From: a virus
Direction: 5' to 3' (one strand)
IMG/VR virus record: IMGVR_UViG_3300042907_001641
Coordinates: 1-33,553 of that record
DNA length: 33,553 nt
The position numbers and the translations under genes were made by a program. How positions within the stretch are numbered: the stretch's first letter is position 1; every line of letters begins with the position of its first letter. Below the pieces are notes generated by a model. It was not told where the DNA came from. It searched no databases and saw nothing but the letters and a program-made list of their open reading frames with translations. Of the stretch, positions 4,403-23,658 are shown one piece after another.

Positions 4403-4614
4403 TCGCGCGATGGCGTGCGCGGTTTCGCGGACGCGCGGTCAGCGCCGGACAGTACGACGCCCACATCAACCTGCTGCTCATGGACGTCGCGCGCCTCGAT
4501 CTGCGCGACGTCGATGACCTCGATCCCGACGCGCTCGACGAGATCATGGCAGCATACGAAGCGCGCAGCCAGCAGCAAGAGTCCGAGCGCAAGGCAGCAG
4601 AACGGAGACGGTGA
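4034..4614 (+). CDS. Tail assembly chaperone, -1 frameshifted long form (gpGT-like, about 193 aa)
   Basis: The reading is 4034-4390 in the first frame, then -1 with base 4390 read twice, on to TGA 4612-4614. The slip site CCCAAAC (4384-4390) has the right phase: codons CCA AAC can slip to CCC AAA. The extension adds 74 residues, begins RNELIARWRARF, has an acidic middle (DLRDVDDLDPDALDEI) and ends in a charged helix. It has no start codon with a ribosome site of its own and ends exactly at the tape measure start (TGATG). This is the arrangement known from lambda G/GT and many siphoviruses. The frameshift is inferred from sequence, not measured. Confidence 0.82.
4384..4390 (+). promoter_or_regulatory. 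-1 ribosomal frameshift site CCCAAAC
   Basis: The heptamer fits X XXY YYZ in the chaperone frame (C CCA AAC) and lies 9 bases before the zero-frame stop codon. Slipping by -1 opens a 74-codon extension that runs to the tape measure start. The GC-rich sequence downstream could form a stimulatory structure but I did not fold it. Confidence 0.82.
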
Positions 4615-7600
4615 TGGCTAAGGCTGAGCTCGAGATCATCGTCAAGCTCAAGGACATGGCGAAGGGCGCGCTCAACGATCTCAACACCGGACTGACGGGA
4701 CTCGGCACCGGCGCAGCCGTCGCAGCCGGCGCCGGGATTGCTGCGGTCACTGCCGGGTTGATCAACATCGGCGACCAGGCATCGAACGCGCGCACCGTGC
4801 TGCAGGGACTCAACGACGTCGATCTGACCGCAGTGCTCGACGATGCCCAGCTGCTGGCTCGCAGGTACGGCGAAGACGTCAACAAGACGGTGGCGGCGAC
4901 GCGCACGTTGATGGAGGATTTCGGGCTGACCAGTGAGGAAGCCAACGACCTCATCGTGTCGGGCTTCAACCGCGGCCTCGACGCCTCCGGCGATTTTCTC
5001 GATACCATCGGCGAGTACTCGAATCTATTTGTTGATGGTGGCGCCACTGCCGAAGAGTTCTTCTCGCTGCTGGAGAGCGGCTTGGCCGGCGGCGTGCTCG
5101 GCACCGACAAGGCCGCCGACGCCTTCAAGGAGTTCGGCATTCGGCTCAGCGAGCTGCAGCTGGCCGAAGGCGACATGACGTTCGCCGAAGCGCTCGACGG
5201 CTCTGGCGAGATCGTCAAGCGCATGGTCAGTGGATTCGAGAGCGCACTCTACTTCACCGATCTGTCGGCCAAGGAGATCAACGATCTCCACCAGGGCCTG
5301 ATGGACGGATCGAAGACGACGGCCGACGCTTTCAAGATCATCGTCCCAGCACTCGCCGGAATCGAGAGCGAGGTCGAGCGGAACGCCGCCGGTGTGCAGT
5401 TGTTCGGCACGCAGTGGGAAGACCTCGGCCCGCAGATCATGTCGCAGCTGACGCTGACCGGCACGAGCATGGAACAGCTCGGCGAAACTGCCGAGGCCGA
5501 GCGCGGCGTGATTCTGGGCTCACTCGGCGAGGTTCCGGCGCTCATTTTCGATAAGTTCTCGCTCGCGCTGCTGCCGCTCAGCGATCTGTTGCTGGGCGTG
5601 GCGAACAGCATCATGGCTGCCGAGGACCCACTGGCACAACTCTTCGAGGAGGTGTTCAAGCTGGTGCCGGGCCTCGAGCAATTCGCTGGCCAGGGGACTG
5701 CGATCGTCGCGGCGATGCAGCCGTTCATCAAGGTCGTCCAGGACAACCTGATCCCAATCATTGCCGGACTCGTAGCAGTGGTCGGCGTAGCGCTGGTCGC
5801 TGCGTTGGGCTCCGTGATCGCGCCGATTGCCGGCGTGATTGCAACCACGGGCGCGTTCGTGGCCGCGCTATTCGCCGTGGTGGCCGCTGGCGCAAAAGTG
5901 TATGAGACGATCACAACGCAGTACCCGGGCATGGCTATCCAGATCAAGGACGCGTTCGAGACAGCCAAAGCCTTTGTGATGACGGCGATGCAGGTTATCG
6001 CGACCGTCGTGCAAACCATCACGGCAGCCGTGGTTGGATGGTGGCAGGAGAACGGTGATCGCATCATCGCGCAGGTACAGACGACGTTCAACACCGCGGT
6101 AGCCGTGATCAGCAGCGTGATGATGCAGATCGAGGCAACAGTCGCCACCATCACCGAGGTCATCGCGAAGTTTTGGGCAACGTACGGCGACGAGATTATC
6201 GCTACGGTCAACGATCTCGCAATCCAGCTCGGCGCGCTGTGGGACGAGATTGTGAAGCTCGTCAACGCGGCAATGATCGGCATCGGTCAGCTGATCAACG
6301 GCGCGCTCTCAGAGATTCAGAAATTCTGGGAGACCTACGGCAATGACATCCAGGTTATTGCGTTCAACGTGTTCAACGGGATCAGCCAGCAGATCAGCGG
6401 ATTCATGGAGATTATCCGCGGGATTGTGAAGACCGTTACCGCGCTGATCCAGGGCGACTGGCAGGGCGCGGCCGATGGGCTGCGGACCATCGTCGATGGG
6501 ATCTCCACGTACCTGGTGGGGACGTGGAACACGATCGTCGCGGTGATTGGTCCGATCCTCAATCAGATTACTGCGGCAATCACGCACGCATTCACGGCGG
6601 CATGGAACGGAATCACCGGCACGCTGACAACGATTCAGAACGGCATCACCAGTGCGTTCACTGGCGCATGGAACGGGATCACCGGCACGCTGACAACGAT
6701 TCAGAACGGCATCACGAATGCGTTCACTGGCGCATGGAACGGCATCACCGGTACGCTGACAACGATACAAAACGGCATCGTCAATACATTCACCCATGCA
6801 TGGAACGGGATCACCGCCACACTGACAAGAATCCAGATAGGTATCATTGCTGCAATTCTGCGAGCCTGGACCGGCATCGTGACATTCCTGACCAACATTC
6901 GGAATGGCATCATCAACGCCATCAAAGCCGCGTGGGATGGGCTGGTCGCAAACCTAAGCAAGATCCGGCAGGGTATCATCGACGCGGTGAGCCGTGCATG
7001 GACCGGCATCGTGACATTCCTGACCAACATTCGCGACGGCATCATCAACGCCATCAAAACCGCGTGGGAGGGGCTGGTCGCAAACCTAAGCAAGATCCGG
7101 CAGGGTATCATCGACGCGGTGAGCCGTGCATGGACCGGCATCGTGACATTCCTGACCAACATTCGCGACGGCATCATCAACGCCATCAAAACCGCGTGGG
7201 AGGGGCTGGTCGCAAACCTAAGCAAGATCCGGCAGGGTATCATCGACGCGGTGAGCCGTGCGTGGGATGGTATCAGAGACACACTAAGCACCATTCGGCT
7301 GCGCATCATCCAGGCGATCCAGCTGGCGTGGGATGGACTAATCATCAACCTGGGCAAAATCAAGCAGGGCATCATCAACGCCATCGCGTTTGCGTGGGAT
7401 GGTATCAGAGACACACTAAGCACCATTCGGCTGCGCATCATTCAAGCGATTCAGCTCGCGTGGGATGGAATAACCATCAACCTGGGCAAAATCAAGCAGG
7501 GTATCATCGACGCCATCGCGTTTGCGTGGGATGGTATCAGTGGCGTGCTGACCAACATCCGCAACGGGATTACGAACGCAATCACCGGCGCGCTCGATGC

Positions 7601-8090
7601 CATCAGCGCGCCACTGGGCAACATCAAAACGGCGGTCATCGATGCACTCACCGCCGTCCGCACATGGCTGGAATCGTTTAGCCTAGGAAAAGTCGCGTTG
7701 GGCATCGCCGATTCACTGGTCGGCGGCATGATCAAAGCGATCAGCGGAACCGCAGATAAACTCAAGGACGCGTTCAAGAATCTGGTCCAATCCGCGATCA
7801 ACTCGCTGCCCAAGCCGATCCGCGATGCGCTTGCGCTATTGGGCTTCAAGGTCACGAAGAGCGCTGCCGCGACGCTGCCAGCGCCACCGCCAACGACACG
7901 AGGGGCAGCAGTCGGTAGCGTGCTACCTGGCGCATCGGTGGCTACGGTTTCGAGCCCGTCGATCGTTATCAACATTGGCTCGGTTCGCGACGCGCGCGAC
8001 ATCGACGCTATCAGGCGCGCCGTCCGCGATGGCATGGACGAAGCCGCGCGCCGAGGTATTGTGCAGTCGCAGTTGCCGCGAGGGATCTAA
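4614..8090 (+). CDS. Tape measure protein (1158 aa)
   Basis: This is the longest gene. I choose ATG 4614, with GGAGA five bases before it, over GTG 4611. The tape measure sets tail length and passes through the membrane at infection. Residues 1-370 look helical with a hydrophobic glycine-rich start, residues about 378-435 form a strongly hydrophobic region with several membrane-like stretches, and residues 659-1010 hold sixteen 22-residue repeats with a Trp at almost the same place in each. The C-terminal part has a Pro/Ala linker (LPAPPPTTRG). At 1.5 angstrom per residue the tail would be roughly 170 nm, an estimate from the usual ruler relation. The stop overlaps the next start (TAATG). Confidence 0.92.
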   Translation: MAKAELEIIVKLKDMAKGALNDLNTGLTGLGTGAAVAAGAGIAAVTAGLINIGDQASNARTVLQGLNDVDLTAVLDDAQLLARRYGEDVNKTVAATRTLMEDFGLTSEEANDLIVSGFNRGLDASGDFLDTIGEYSNLFVDGGATAEEFFSLLESGLAGGVLGTDKAADAFKEFGIRLSELQLAEGDMTFAEALDGSGEIVKRMVSGFESALYFTDLSAKEINDLHQGLMDGSKTTADAFKIIVPALAGIESEVERNAAGVQLFGTQWEDLGPQIMSQLTLTGTSMEQLGETAEAERGVILGSLGEVPALIFDKFSLALLPLSDLLLGVANSIMAAEDPLAQLFEEVFKLVPGLEQFAGQGTAIVAAMQPFIKVVQDNLIPIIAGLVAVVGVALVAALGSVIAPIAGVIATTGAFVAALFAVVAAGAKVYETITTQYPGMAIQIKDAFETAKAFVMTAMQVIATVVQTITAAVVGWWQENGDRIIAQVQTTFNTAVAVISSVMMQIEATVATITEVIAKFWATYGDEIIATVNDLAIQLGALWDEIVKLVNAAMIGIGQLINGALSEIQKFWETYGNDIQVIAFNVFNGISQQISGFMEIIRGIVKTVTALIQGDWQGAADGLRTIVDGISTYLVGTWNTIVAVIGPILNQITAAITHAFTAAWNGITGTLTTIQNGITSAFTGAWNGITGTLTTIQNGITNAFTGAWNGITGTLTTIQNGIVNTFTHAWNGITATLTRIQIGIIAAILRAWTGIVTFLTNIRNGIINAIKAAWDGLVANLSKIRQGIIDAVSRAWTGIVTFLTNIRDGIINAIKTAWEGLVANLSKIRQGIIDAVSRAWTGIVTFLTNIRDGIINAIKTAWEGLVANLSKIRQGIIDAVSRAWDGIRDTLSTIRLRIIQAIQLAWDGLIINLGKIKQGIINAIAFAWDGIRDTLSTIRLRIIQAIQLAWDGITINLGKIKQGIIDAIAFAWDGISGVLTNIRNGITNAITGALDAISAPLGNIKTAVIDALTAVRTWLESFSLGKVALGIADSLVGGMIKAISGTADKLKDAFKNLVQSAINSLPKPIRDALALLGFKVTKSAAATLPAPPPTTRGAAVGSVLPGASVATVSSPSIVINIGSVRDARDIDAIRRAVRDGMDEAARRGIVQSQLPRGI
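6588..7643 (+). repeat. Sixteen 66-base (22-residue) repeats in the tape measure gene
   Basis: Units begin at 6588 and recur every 66 bases to 7643. A typical unit is AFTGAWNGITGTLTTIQNGI plus two residues. Two unit types alternate in the middle, giving a 132-base super-repeat that is almost identical in DNA at 6867, 6999 and 7131, which means recent duplication. Twenty-two residues equal two hendecads, a spacing suited to a long straight helix bundle. Each unit would change predicted tail length by about 3.3 nm. Confidence 0.9.
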
Positions 8091-20445: not shown

Positions 20446-23067
20446 ATGGCGTCGAGTCTCGGCACGCAGGCAATCCTGACCAAGTCGAATTTCACGCTGC
20501 TGCCGCTTGCGATTCGGCACGCGGATCAGTGGATCACATGGGACGCAGGCGATAAGCGCCCAGGCCGCTACGAGACGTGGCGAACCGCGACCAGCCGACG
20601 CCACATCGATGACGTCATGCCGCAGCTGGGCGACCAGCTCGGCCTGGCGCGTGTGATGTCGGACGGCTTCGCCGTGCTCGACCTCGACAAGGTGGCGACG
20701 TCGCCGCGTGATCGCAAGAGCCTGGTCGCGTGGGCGCAGCCGATCGTGGCGCGTGCGCTCAAATTGGGCTATGTCGAGTGGTCGCATAGCGGACGCGGAT
20801 TGCATATCGTTATGCGTGACGTCCCGCAGGACTGGCAGCGCAAGCGCGCGTGGCGCGCAGACGACGGCAGCGGGTACGACTGGATTGCCGGCGAGAACCT
20901 GTGCCACCTCACGATGGATTCGCTGGACCATCTCGGGGGCACCATCTGCGTGCCGGCATCGGAGATGATCGCGCTGCTGCCGCAGCCAGTCGAGGCCGTG
21001 CCGGCAGTGACCGCGCCACGCGTTCTCGCGACTCGGTTCGACATTGCGCCCAGCGATGCGCGCAAACACGGATACGGCGAGAACGCGATGGAGCGCCTGA
21101 TCGGCGAGCTCAGCCAGGCCGGCGAAGGTGCGCGTAACAAGGCGCTCAACTGGACCTCGTACCGTCTCGGGCAGCTGGACGCGGCCGGCACCATCGCCGA
21201 TGCGCAGCGGTGGCTTGACGTCGTGCAGAGCACTGCCGGCGCCATCGGCCTGGGCAATCGCGAGATCGTGTCGACGATGCGCAGCGGCTACGAGGCCGGG
21301 CGGCTGAAGCCTGCGGATATCGACTGGCGCAACGACGAACCACGTGAGCGCCACGCTGCCGACGCGCCCGTGCAATCTGTCGCGTCCGATGCTGTCGTCG
21401 TTCCTGAGGCTTCTGGTGGCGTCACAGCGCCAGCACGGCGCTACACGTCGTTGATCCATGCGAGTGATCTGGCGCGCTTGCCGCAGACCACATGGCTGGT
21501 CGACAAGTTGCTCGGGCTGGGCGTGATCACGCAGTTCTTCGGCAAGCCCGGCGCCGGGAAGAGCCTCGCCGCACTCGATGTCGCGCTGACCATTGCGCAG
21601 CACATGCCGGTGGTGTACGTGGCTGGCGAGGCTCCCGGCGAGCTCGCGCCGCGCATCCACGCGTGGTGCCAGCACACGCGCAGCCAGGGGCCGGGGCGGT
21701 TCTACGTCTACCCCGAGGCGATCAATTTGCGCGATCGTGATCAGATCGGCGCGCTGTCTGATGAGTGCCGCGCCATTGAGGCTCGCATGATCATCATCGA
21801 TCCGCTGGCGGAGTGCCTGGGCGCGGCTGGGCTCGACGAGAACGCGGCGCAGGACATGGGTATCGCCGTCGCGGCGCTGCGCACACTGGTCGCCGATGCC
21901 GGCAACCCGGCGCTGCTCGTCGTGCACCACGCGGGCTGGGATGACGCCCACGAGCGCGGCTCGAGTGCGCTGCGCGGCGCGTCGCGCGTGGTTGTGCGTG
22001 TCGCTGCCGATGCCGACGACAACCGCGTCACACTGCGTGTGGACAAGGCCAACAACGGCAAGCCGTTCGAGGAGCTCTACTACGCCATGGTCGGCGTGGC
22101 CGATAGTGTGGTGCTGACGCCCCATCATCGGGCGGCGCCAGCTGCCGATCGACCGCTGTCGCCGATGCAGCTGCAGCTTCTGGAGGTTCTGATGCTGCAG
22201 CAGTATCGCGACGGGGCGTCGCAGTCGGCTCTTGTCGACTCGTCAGGGCAGTCGCGGCAGACGGTCAGCAAGAGTATCTCCCGGTTGTTGAAGCGACTCA
22301 TGATCGAACAGAACAACAGTTTGTTCACCATCACCGAGAGGGGCCAGCAGTACCTGGAAGGCGTCGCTGCCGCTGGGGGTATCGGAACCGCCGCACTGGC
22401 CAGCGAGGATGGGCGCTACAACTGGCGCGTCAACCCCGTGTCGCCACTGTCGCCACTGTCGCCAGTGTTGTCGCCACCTTGTCCCCTATCTGTCGCCAGT
22501 GTGTCGCCAGTCACTGGGGACAACGGACATCTGTCCCCTGTCACTGGGGACAAGGGCACCGTTTGTCCCCTGTCGCCTGATGATTCTGTCCCCAGTGCTG
22601 TCGCCAGTGGCGCAATAGGTGATTCCGCATTGCAATGCGAAACGTCGCCTGAGTTGTCCCCTATGTCGCCAGTCTTGTCCCCTGTTTGTCCCCTACCTGT
22701 CCCCTTGTCCCCTGTTGTTGGGGGGCCTATAAGGCCCCCAACAGGGGACAAGGGACAAGGGACTGACCATATGGTCGGCGACATCGTCGAAGCCGTTGAG
22801 CCTGCCGTCGAAGTGGTCGACGATCCGTTCGCCTGGTTCGATCGACATCGCGATAGCTACTCGGCGAACGTCAGCATTGTTCAGTGCTGGGTCACGCGGC
22901 AGGATAATGGGCAGGGCGAGGATCGGTACTTCGCCGTGGCCGACTGGGGTACGCCGCAGGCGGCGATTGCGTGGGAGACGAGTCCGTACGGCTACGAGCG
23001 GGAATCCGATGCGCGCAGCGCCGCGCTGGAGCGCAACAACATCAGGCCCGGACTGATCACACTGTAG
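20446..23067 (+). CDS. Primase-polymerase / RepA-like helicase replication protein (873 aa)
   Basis: A ribosome site (CGGAGG) precedes ATG 20446. Residues 1-180 look like a primase-polymerase domain: LDLDK (78-82), SHSGRGLHIVM (113-123) and YDWIAGENLCHLT. Residues 330-560 form a RecA/RepA-like ATPase: Walker A GKPGAGKS (366-373), Walker B MIIIDP (448-453) and LLVVHHAGWDDAHERGSSAL. A winged helix follows (570-635). Residues about 664-775 are a Ser/Pro/Leu linker encoded by the TGTCSCC repeat field, and a C-terminal domain of about 100 residues ends the protein. It likely initiates, primes and unwinds. No other replicative polymerase is visible in the genome. Confidence 0.85.
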   Translation: MASSLGTQAILTKSNFTLLPLAIRHADQWITWDAGDKRPGRYETWRTATSRRHIDDVMPQLGDQLGLARVMSDGFAVLDLDKVATSPRDRKSLVAWAQPIVARALKLGYVEWSHSGRGLHIVMRDVPQDWQRKRAWRADDGSGYDWIAGENLCHLTMDSLDHLGGTICVPASEMIALLPQPVEAVPAVTAPRVLATRFDIAPSDARKHGYGENAMERLIGELSQAGEGARNKALNWTSYRLGQLDAAGTIADAQRWLDVVQSTAGAIGLGNREIVSTMRSGYEAGRLKPADIDWRNDEPRERHAADAPVQSVASDAVVVPEASGGVTAPARRYTSLIHASDLARLPQTTWLVDKLLGLGVITQFFGKPGAGKSLAALDVALTIAQHMPVVYVAGEAPGELAPRIHAWCQHTRSQGPGRFYVYPEAINLRDRDQIGALSDECRAIEARMIIIDPLAECLGAAGLDENAAQDMGIAVAALRTLVADAGNPALLVVHHAGWDDAHERGSSALRGASRVVVRVAADADDNRVTLRVDKANNGKPFEELYYAMVGVADSVVLTPHHRAAPAADRPLSPMQLQLLEVLMLQQYRDGASQSALVDSSGQSRQTVSKSISRLLKRLMIEQNNSLFTITERGQQYLEGVAAAGGIGTAALASEDGRYNWRVNPVSPLSPLSPVLSPPCPLSVASVSPVTGDNGHLSPVTGDKGTVCPLSPDDSVPSAVASGAIGDSALQCETSPELSPMSPVLSPVCPLPVPLSPVVGGPIRPPTGDKGQGTDHMVGDIVEAVEPAVEVVDDPFAWFDRHRDSYSANVSIVQCWVTRQDNGQGEDRYFAVADWGTPQAAIAWETSPYGYERESDARSAALERNNIRPGLITL
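22439..22755 (+). repeat. Dense TGTCSCC iteron field with large palindrome: candidate replication origin
   Basis: About 18 copies of TGTCCCC or TGTCGCC lie in direct orientation within 317 bases, with three inverted GGGGACA copies. Near the end (22702-22754) they form one large imperfect palindrome: CCCTTGTCCCCTGTTG pairs with CAACAGGGGACAAGGG and the centre is a GC stem with an ATA loop. The repeats lie inside the replication gene, between its winged helix and C-terminal domain, as in phage lambda where the origin lies inside gene O. The encoded residues are a flexible Ser-Pro linker, so the protein tolerates the repeats. Confidence 0.65.
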
Positions 23068-23069
23068 GC

Positions 23070-23075
23070 TATACT
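23070..23075 (+). promoter_or_regulatory. TATACT -10-like element before the lysis genes
   Basis: GGCTATACTG lies just after the replication gene stop (23065-23067) and matches the element at 20311. The -35 is poor. It is placed to start lysis gene transcription. Confidence 0.5.
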
Positions 23076-23081
23076 GTGGCG

Positions 23082-23106
23082 GGCGCCGGGGTCTGCGGCC
23101 GGCGCC
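23082..23106 (+). other. Hairpin at the start of the lysis transcript
   Basis: GGCGCCGG (23082-23089) pairs with CCGGCGCC (23099-23106). It begins at the position expected for the transcript start, and is followed by the ribosome site AGGAGG of the amidase gene. Confidence 0.72.
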
Positions 23107-23127
23107 TGGCGTTCGACAGGAGGCACT

Positions 23128-23658
23128 ATGCGACGGTTCCGGATGGACATTCGACGCTGGGCGACGCCAGCCGATCTGGCGCGACACCTCGATCATCATC
23201 ATCCCAACATCTGCAGCTGGTGGCAGCGCATCGTCCTGCACCACACCGTCGTGCCGACACTCGCCCAGTGGCAAGGCCTGCGCAGCATGGAAGCGATGGC
23301 GAACTACTACCAGCGCCTGGGCTGGCCCGCCGGGCCGCACTTATTCATCGCCGTCGGCTCGCCGCGGCCGCAGGACGACGGCATCTGGCAGATGACCGCG
23401 CTGAACGAGCGCGGCATCCACGCCGGTGTCTGCAACGTCGACAGCGTGGGCATCGAGGTCGTGGGCCGGTACGATGCGGCGCCGTGGGCGCCGCGCATGC
23501 GCGCCGTCGTGTATGATGTGCTTGTGGTCCTTCAACGCTGGCAGCGGCGCGATATCCACATCATCGGACATCGTGACTGCAATTCGCCGAAGAGCTGCCC
23601 GGGCCGGGCCATCGATCTGAACGTGGTGCGACGTGACGTAGCGGAGGCGATGCAGTGA
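23128..23658 (+). CDS. Endolysin: N-acetylmuramoyl-L-alanine amidase (176 aa)
   Basis: AGGAGG precedes ATG 23128. The protein is a single amidase_2/PGRP domain that cuts the bond between muramic acid and the peptide stem. Expected zinc ligands are present: His in VLHHT (His38), His in IIGHRDC (His148) and Cys in KSCPG (Cys157). Also visible are a GPHLFIA strand and the SVGIEVVGRY strand. It has no signal peptide and no separate wall-binding domain. It is followed by an XhlA-like gene and a holin-like gene, a complete lysis cassette. Its stop overlaps the next GTG start. Confidence 0.9.
   Translation: MRRFRMDIRRWATPADLARHLDHHHPNICSWWQRIVLHHTVVPTLAQWQGLRSMEAMANYYQRLGWPAGPHLFIAVGSPRPQDDGIWQMTALNERGIHAGVCNVDSVGIEVVGRYDAAPWAPRMRAVVYDVLVVLQRWQRRDIHIIGHRDCNSPKSCPGRAIDLNVVRRDVAEAMQ

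Follow-up and report, generated by a model that had tools for sequence, protein, structure and literature searches.

Does a dense field of short repeats inside a phage replication gene mark the place where that phage starts to copy its DNA? Few uncultured phages have a known replication origin, and the question was raised by a viral stretch of 33,553 nucleotides (IMG/VR record IMGVR_UViG_3300042907_001641, analysed at full length and hereafter the window) in which TGTCSCC repeats fill the linker of a primase-helicase gene. The array was found to be real, and it probably functions as an origin.

Domains of the replication gene

The replication gene (20446-23067, + strand) encodes 873 amino acids, which the list of open reading frames (ORFs) and Pfam and PHROGs searches divided into a primase-like N-terminus, an AAA_25 helicase, a winged helix, a Ser-Pro linker with the array and a variable tail. 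The PrimPol-like primase domain (aa 17-133, 20494-20844, + strand) matched phrog_8643, DNA polymerase/primase (E 6.6e-9). Weak matches to PDB chains named Primase (7rr4, 6k9a, 6a9w; E about 1e-3) covered aa 62-146, and inspection of the translation by eye for AEP primase motifs displayed VLDLDK and SGRGLH stretches. The helicase core (aa 337-500, 21454-21945, + strand) matched AAA_25 (PF13481, E 9.6e-29), as did 60 of 60 relatives, with K54, D134, H176 and H177 (alignment numbering) invariant. The best solved structure for a profile of these 60 relatives was RSF1010 RepA (1g8y, E 8.6e-19), and the helicase was assigned on sequence to the RSF1010 RepA-like (AAA_25) family.

Searched alone, the C-terminal stretch matched MarR_2 (E 2.5e-6), HVO_A0261_N and HTH_45, delimiting a winged helix-turn-helix at about aa 571-641 (22156-22368, + strand), which is proposed as the reader of the iterons. 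Pfam sees a winged helix in only a few of the 60 relatives, although the C-terminal regions have sufficient length for one. The tail behind the array (22771-23067, + strand) gave no family match and evolves fast (pS 0.43 and pN 0.28 among close relatives). Near-identical relatives carried quite different C-termini, all ending in ITL, and the in-frame ATG at 22771 could yield a separate small protein.

Repeat array and palindrome in the linker

The earlier note had described about 18 direct TGTCCCC/TGTCGCC units and three inverted GGGGACA units within 22439-22755. Counting gave 18 forward TGTCSCC units (22439-22712, + strand) and inverted units at 22516, 22546 and 22744, and an additional reverse unit (GGCGACA, 22777) lies just beyond that range. 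The array as delimited from pattern positions, repeats and conservation thus spans 22439-22783, with 18 forward and four reverse units (3 GGGGACA, 1 GGCGACA). Outside it, the whole 33.5-kb window held only 6 forward and 11 reverse units. The array was the top 7-mer cluster of the window, with a score of 26.2, where 20 Markov surrogates reached at most 7.2. The second-strongest short-repeat cluster (about 6950-7540; GGTATCA, CGTGGGA) lies within a long ORF (4611-8090) and probably consists of coding repeats.

Forward units occupied all three reading frames (11, 3 and 4). The 21 units observed exceeded both the 20,000 reverse translations of the linker made with the codon usage of the gene (mean 4.9, maximum 12) and permutations of synonymous codons within the array (mean 7.9, maximum 16), so that neither the protein nor codon choice explains the array.

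The units are interrupted at 22613-22654, a gap without TGTCSCC that was delimited from unit spacing, repeats and GC windows and that contains a TTCCGCATTGCA/TGCAATGCGAAA palindrome. Its GC content (0.53-0.57) is below that of the rest of the array, which weakly suggests a possible opening site. No clear AT-rich tract of the lambda kind was seen, the lowest 40-bp GC value listed for the array region being 0.53. An AT-rich opening element is usual in iteron-type origins and not universal; strand opening could occur at the hairpin instead. DnaA boxes, which some iteron-type origins contain and which are not required, were absent from the window. A turn of the GC skew, for which the earlier note had proposed to look here, was not found near 22.5 kb.

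At the end of the forward units lies a 53-base imperfect palindrome (22702-22754) with an ATA loop, described before and borne out by the repeat search and DNA folding. Its outer arms are perfect over 16 bp and include inverted iterons. Folded as single-stranded DNA, it reached -31.5 kcal/mol (z = -6.55 against shuffled sequences). The inner hairpin (22721-22739) reads GGGGGCCT-ATA-AGGCCCCC, and its CCT-(A/T)-AGG apex is common to other phages.

Selection on the array among near relatives

The array was aligned between the window and four near relatives (L009-L012, protein identity 95-98%). Variable columns were 2 of 147 in iterons and 17 of 134 in spacers (Fisher p = 1.6e-4). Both variable iteron columns belonged to one local inversion in L009, which turned TGTCGCC into GGCGACA and thereby regenerated an iteron; in L011, one 9-base unit was missing from the array. 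Most spacer changes affected the first or second codon position. Synonymous divergence (pS) was about five-fold lower in the array (0.026) than in the flanking domains (0.11-0.14), while pN/pS was 1.26 in the array and 0.05-0.27 in the flanking domains. Length differences in the array region were multiples of three, so the reading frame stays open while the residues are free to change. Selection on DNA rather than on protein, as suggested earlier, agrees with these patterns, iteron bases being nearly frozen and linker residues variable. Relatives that kept the linker residues and lost the TGTCSCC bases had been named as the observation that would speak against it; the opposite was found, with bases kept and residues changing. 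As a coding sequence, the array appears only to need to stay open, and its DNA to be the target of selection.

These comparisons bear on the reading of the array as a protein-level repeat, in which a Ser-Pro linker or repeat domain would be selected for its residues. The linker is indeed low-complexity and Ser-Pro rich, as the earlier note had it, and in-frame coding repeats mimic iterons elsewhere. Requiring three TGTCSCC units proved too loose a criterion when viral contigs were searched: the densest match (L083, 4860-5250) turned out to be collagen-like GDTGDK coding repeats with TGTCSCC on the other strand. Two clusters within helicase genes, upstream of the ATPase (phi673, L274 3284-3389; MW202711, L267 3345-3531), were likewise rejected as codon-periodic protein repeats (VPSVEH, ERA-type), and all three cases stand as a warning. 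In the window, however, units in three frames and the failure of both codon nulls are at odds with a protein repeat, as are the arrays that other relatives carry outside the ORF. This explanation was already refuted by the near relatives, which keep the bases and change the residues, and its probability is negligible.

Arrays at related helicase loci

Relatives of the helicase were retrieved by an alignment search at 80 loci in viral sequences and 46 in bacterial genomes. The 7-mer with the strongest clustering was determined for every locus blind to gene position, and the set was then dereplicated to 69 loci. No correction for the number of tested words was applied to the k-mer scores, and controls for placement and for ORF ends were included for this reason. 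The same place was defined as a strongest cluster starting between -200 and +400 bases from the end of the AAA/winged-helix match, with the expectation taken from uniform placement. The earlier note had proposed to search the replication genes of related phages for the same repeat field in this position, and a field of the same kind was found there at 56 of the 69 dereplicated loci (5.2 expected). Cluster scores of at least 6 were reached at the 3' ends of 50 of 67 helicase genes (75%) compared with 20 of 294 other long ORFs (6.8%), several of these 20 control ends being the same arrays viewed from overlapping ORFs. Very strong 7-mer clusters also occurred far from the helicase gene in L242 (82-433; CGGTGCC, 21 copies) and L169 (8370-8706; CTCGTAA, 11 copies).

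Matched loci belonged to phages and prophages, and by record title to proteobacterial, planctomycete and chloroflexi genomes. Among cultured phages, an array directly behind the gene was found in 16-3 (CGTGACA, 14 copies), RHph_N65 (ATCTCCG, 12), CRP-823 (CTACAAA, 11) and PB15 (TGAACCA, 8), and a weaker one behind the helicase gene of CGphi29. No such array was found behind the gene in BFK20 (the phage of the studied protein gp43, which is of this type), RLK, Minerva, Trine and phi673; the array is thus lacking in an actinophage branch that has this type of helicase. The gene at L092, an independent match to the TGTCSCC pattern, proved to encode a helicase of the AAA_25 type; TGTCCCC units surround GGGGACACACACCTATAGGTGTGTCCCC at this locus. 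DnaA boxes showed no overall enrichment and were present only in the L013-L015/L137 lineage, where the box TTATCCACA lies beside CGGACAA iterons (L013 3888-3908, L014 5034-5147, L015 5111-5130).

Most arrays lie beyond the helicase gene. Out of 43 strong arrays, 30 had no overlap with the helicase ORF, and the majority of these 30 began no more than a few tens of bases from its stop codon; 12 straddled the stop codon, and complete embedding in the ORF was seen only in the lineage of the window. This arrangement bears on the possibility of an operator array, whose repeats the winged helix would bind to repress or autoregulate transcription rather than to start replication. MarR/HTH_45-like folds are common among repressors, and plasmid iterons, which often also serve autoregulation, offer a precedent. 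Such a role is nevertheless improbable here: the array of the window lies 2 kb from the start of the gene, at its 3' end, a promoter scan found no promoter-like site within 22300-23200, and most arrays of the relatives begin right after the helicase stop, far from the promoter of that gene.

Lineage-specific iterons and a shared hairpin apex

The iteron itself was lineage-specific (TGTCCCC in the window; TTGTCCG, GTCAGGT, TGTCACG and others elsewhere). With the ATPase core held constant, iteron similarity tracked the C-terminal region (partial Mantel r 0.18, p 0.002), a modest effect whose p value is approximate, the loci being related to one another. It did not track the ATPase core in the Mantel analysis. 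Such a correlation between iteron and C-terminus would be expected if the C-terminal domain reads the iterons.

A partition, incompatibility or DNA-packaging site that came to lie at the helicase gene by chance could also be made of repeats, since repeat arrays are found at centromeres and packaging sites as well, and terminase genes start about 1.2 kb downstream of the replication gene. Among the relatives, though, the array accompanies the helicase gene whatever its neighbours, and its iteron follows the C-terminal region of that helicase; this reading is very unlikely.

Hairpins with a CCT-N2-4-AGG apex occurred in 24 of 50 arrays. Their stems differed and often ran into inverted iterons. 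The loop consisted of A/T only in 22 of 25 array hairpins, against one such hairpin in the 423 kb outside arrays at the same loci, an enrichment that is partly post hoc (the apex was chosen after several examples had been seen), most of the counted loci not being among these examples. In L259 and L230 the arrays lie far downstream, and CCCTATAGGG hairpins were found there too.

Hairpins at gene ends are often transcription terminators, and some T follows the stem in 16-3 and BcepGomr. The hairpin could accordingly be a terminator or an mRNA structure, with the repeats incidental to it. In the window, however, it is placed within the reading frame, and a scan for intrinsic terminators around the array and hairpin returned no terminator-like site. 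T-rich or A-rich flanks accompanied only 3 of 25 array hairpins, which argues that these are not ordinary terminators. The iterons would moreover be left unexplained, and there is very little probability that this is the correct reading.

A proposed initiation mechanism

Iteron-type origins are recognised by short repeats clustered beyond chance with selection at the DNA level, which were found here, and by repeats in or next to the initiator gene, which is where the array lies if the gene encodes the initiator, as proposed. It is highly probable that the array is the iteron-type replication origin of the phage, located within the gene for its initiator and bound by the winged helix, with the hairpin used for opening or priming. 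The winged helix of the same protein would bind the TGTCSCC units, as the correlation of iteron and C-terminus across lineages suggests. With many direct and inverted units bound, the RepA-like helicase would be gathered into rings at the site, by analogy with SaPI Rep and RSF1010. Once extruded, or exposed on a single strand, the palindrome would then present a hairpin as entry point for the primase domain or the helicase. Apex and position of the hairpin were observed directly; its role is suggested by likeness to the RSF1010 ssi hairpins and perhaps to the pRN1 stem-loop. A single protein would in this way unite the tasks of RepC (iterons), RepA (helicase) and RepB' (primase) of RSF1010.

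Whether the arrays as a whole form a widespread, undescribed class of phage origins is an evenly balanced question. Such a class would comprise RepA-like primase-helicases of proteobacterial and other phages, whose genes carry at the 3' end a lineage-specific iteron field co-evolving with the C-terminal domain. The field would often surround a CCT-(A/T)2-4-AGG hairpin that acts as the shared site of entry or priming regardless of which primase type (TOPRIM or PrimPol) is fused to the helicase, and the field would be wholly coding in the lineage of the window. Searches of open-access literature found no description of the array or hairpin; what may be new is how general the module is and that the hairpin apex is shared. 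With a recognisable helicase gene as guide, an origin candidate made of two measurable parts (iterons and a shared-apex hairpin) can be located in dozens of lineages, including the cultured 16-3, RHph_N65, CRP-823 and PB15. Direct tests thereby become possible of origin prediction, of initiator specificity and of coding DNA acting as an origin.

Comparison with known origins

The earlier note had drawn a parallel with phage lambda, the O protein of which is not a helicase. The parallel holds for iterons within the initiator gene; it does not extend to an AT-rich tract, which lies beside the iterons in lambda and was not seen in the window, or to homology with the O protein. In lambda the iterons occupy the central part of the initiator gene, and further iterons lengthen the protein by additional residues (PMC7466680). 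Direct-repeat origins within replisome organiser genes are also known from the lactococcal phages TP901-1 and Tuc2009 (PMC8965321). These organisers are described as repeat-binding and not as primase-helicases, and it is by this description that they are set apart here.

Helicase homology links the locus to the IncQ plasmid RSF1010, which combines iterons, RepA helicase and hairpins recognised by the primase (PMC4234260, PMC4538821). Iterons plus hairpins and a primase (a putative one here) are features of both systems. RSF1010 uses three proteins with a separate RepC initiator, whereas putative primase, helicase and winged helix form one chain here and the iterons are 7 bp long. The pRN1 protein ORF904 likewise joins prim-pol, helicase and winged helix, and its origin, conserved in structure and not in sequence, lies just downstream (PMC4234260). 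It shares with the replication gene of the window this domain set (the primase being putative here) and an origin (a candidate one here) at its gene, but differs by an SF3 helicase and by a single 100-nt stem-loop, the only element needed there.

In SaPI Rep and SCC Cch2, C-terminal domains bind short iterons located immediately 3' of the respective genes (PMC7581432). Like this locus, they pair a helicase that has a C-terminal DNA-binding domain (predicted here) with iterons placed directly 3' of it. Their helicases are of the DUF927 or D5 (Primase_Cterm) type, in contrast to the AAA_25/RepA type of the window with its array within the reading frame. A SaPI/SCC-like layout also occurred in the dataset: on the phage contig L082, another independent match to the TGTCSCC pattern, a TGTCCCC-type array with its own GAATTGCTAGGCAATTC hairpin (5140-5460, minus strand) lies directly behind a helicase gene of the DUF927/Cch type (DUF927 plus Cch-HTH).
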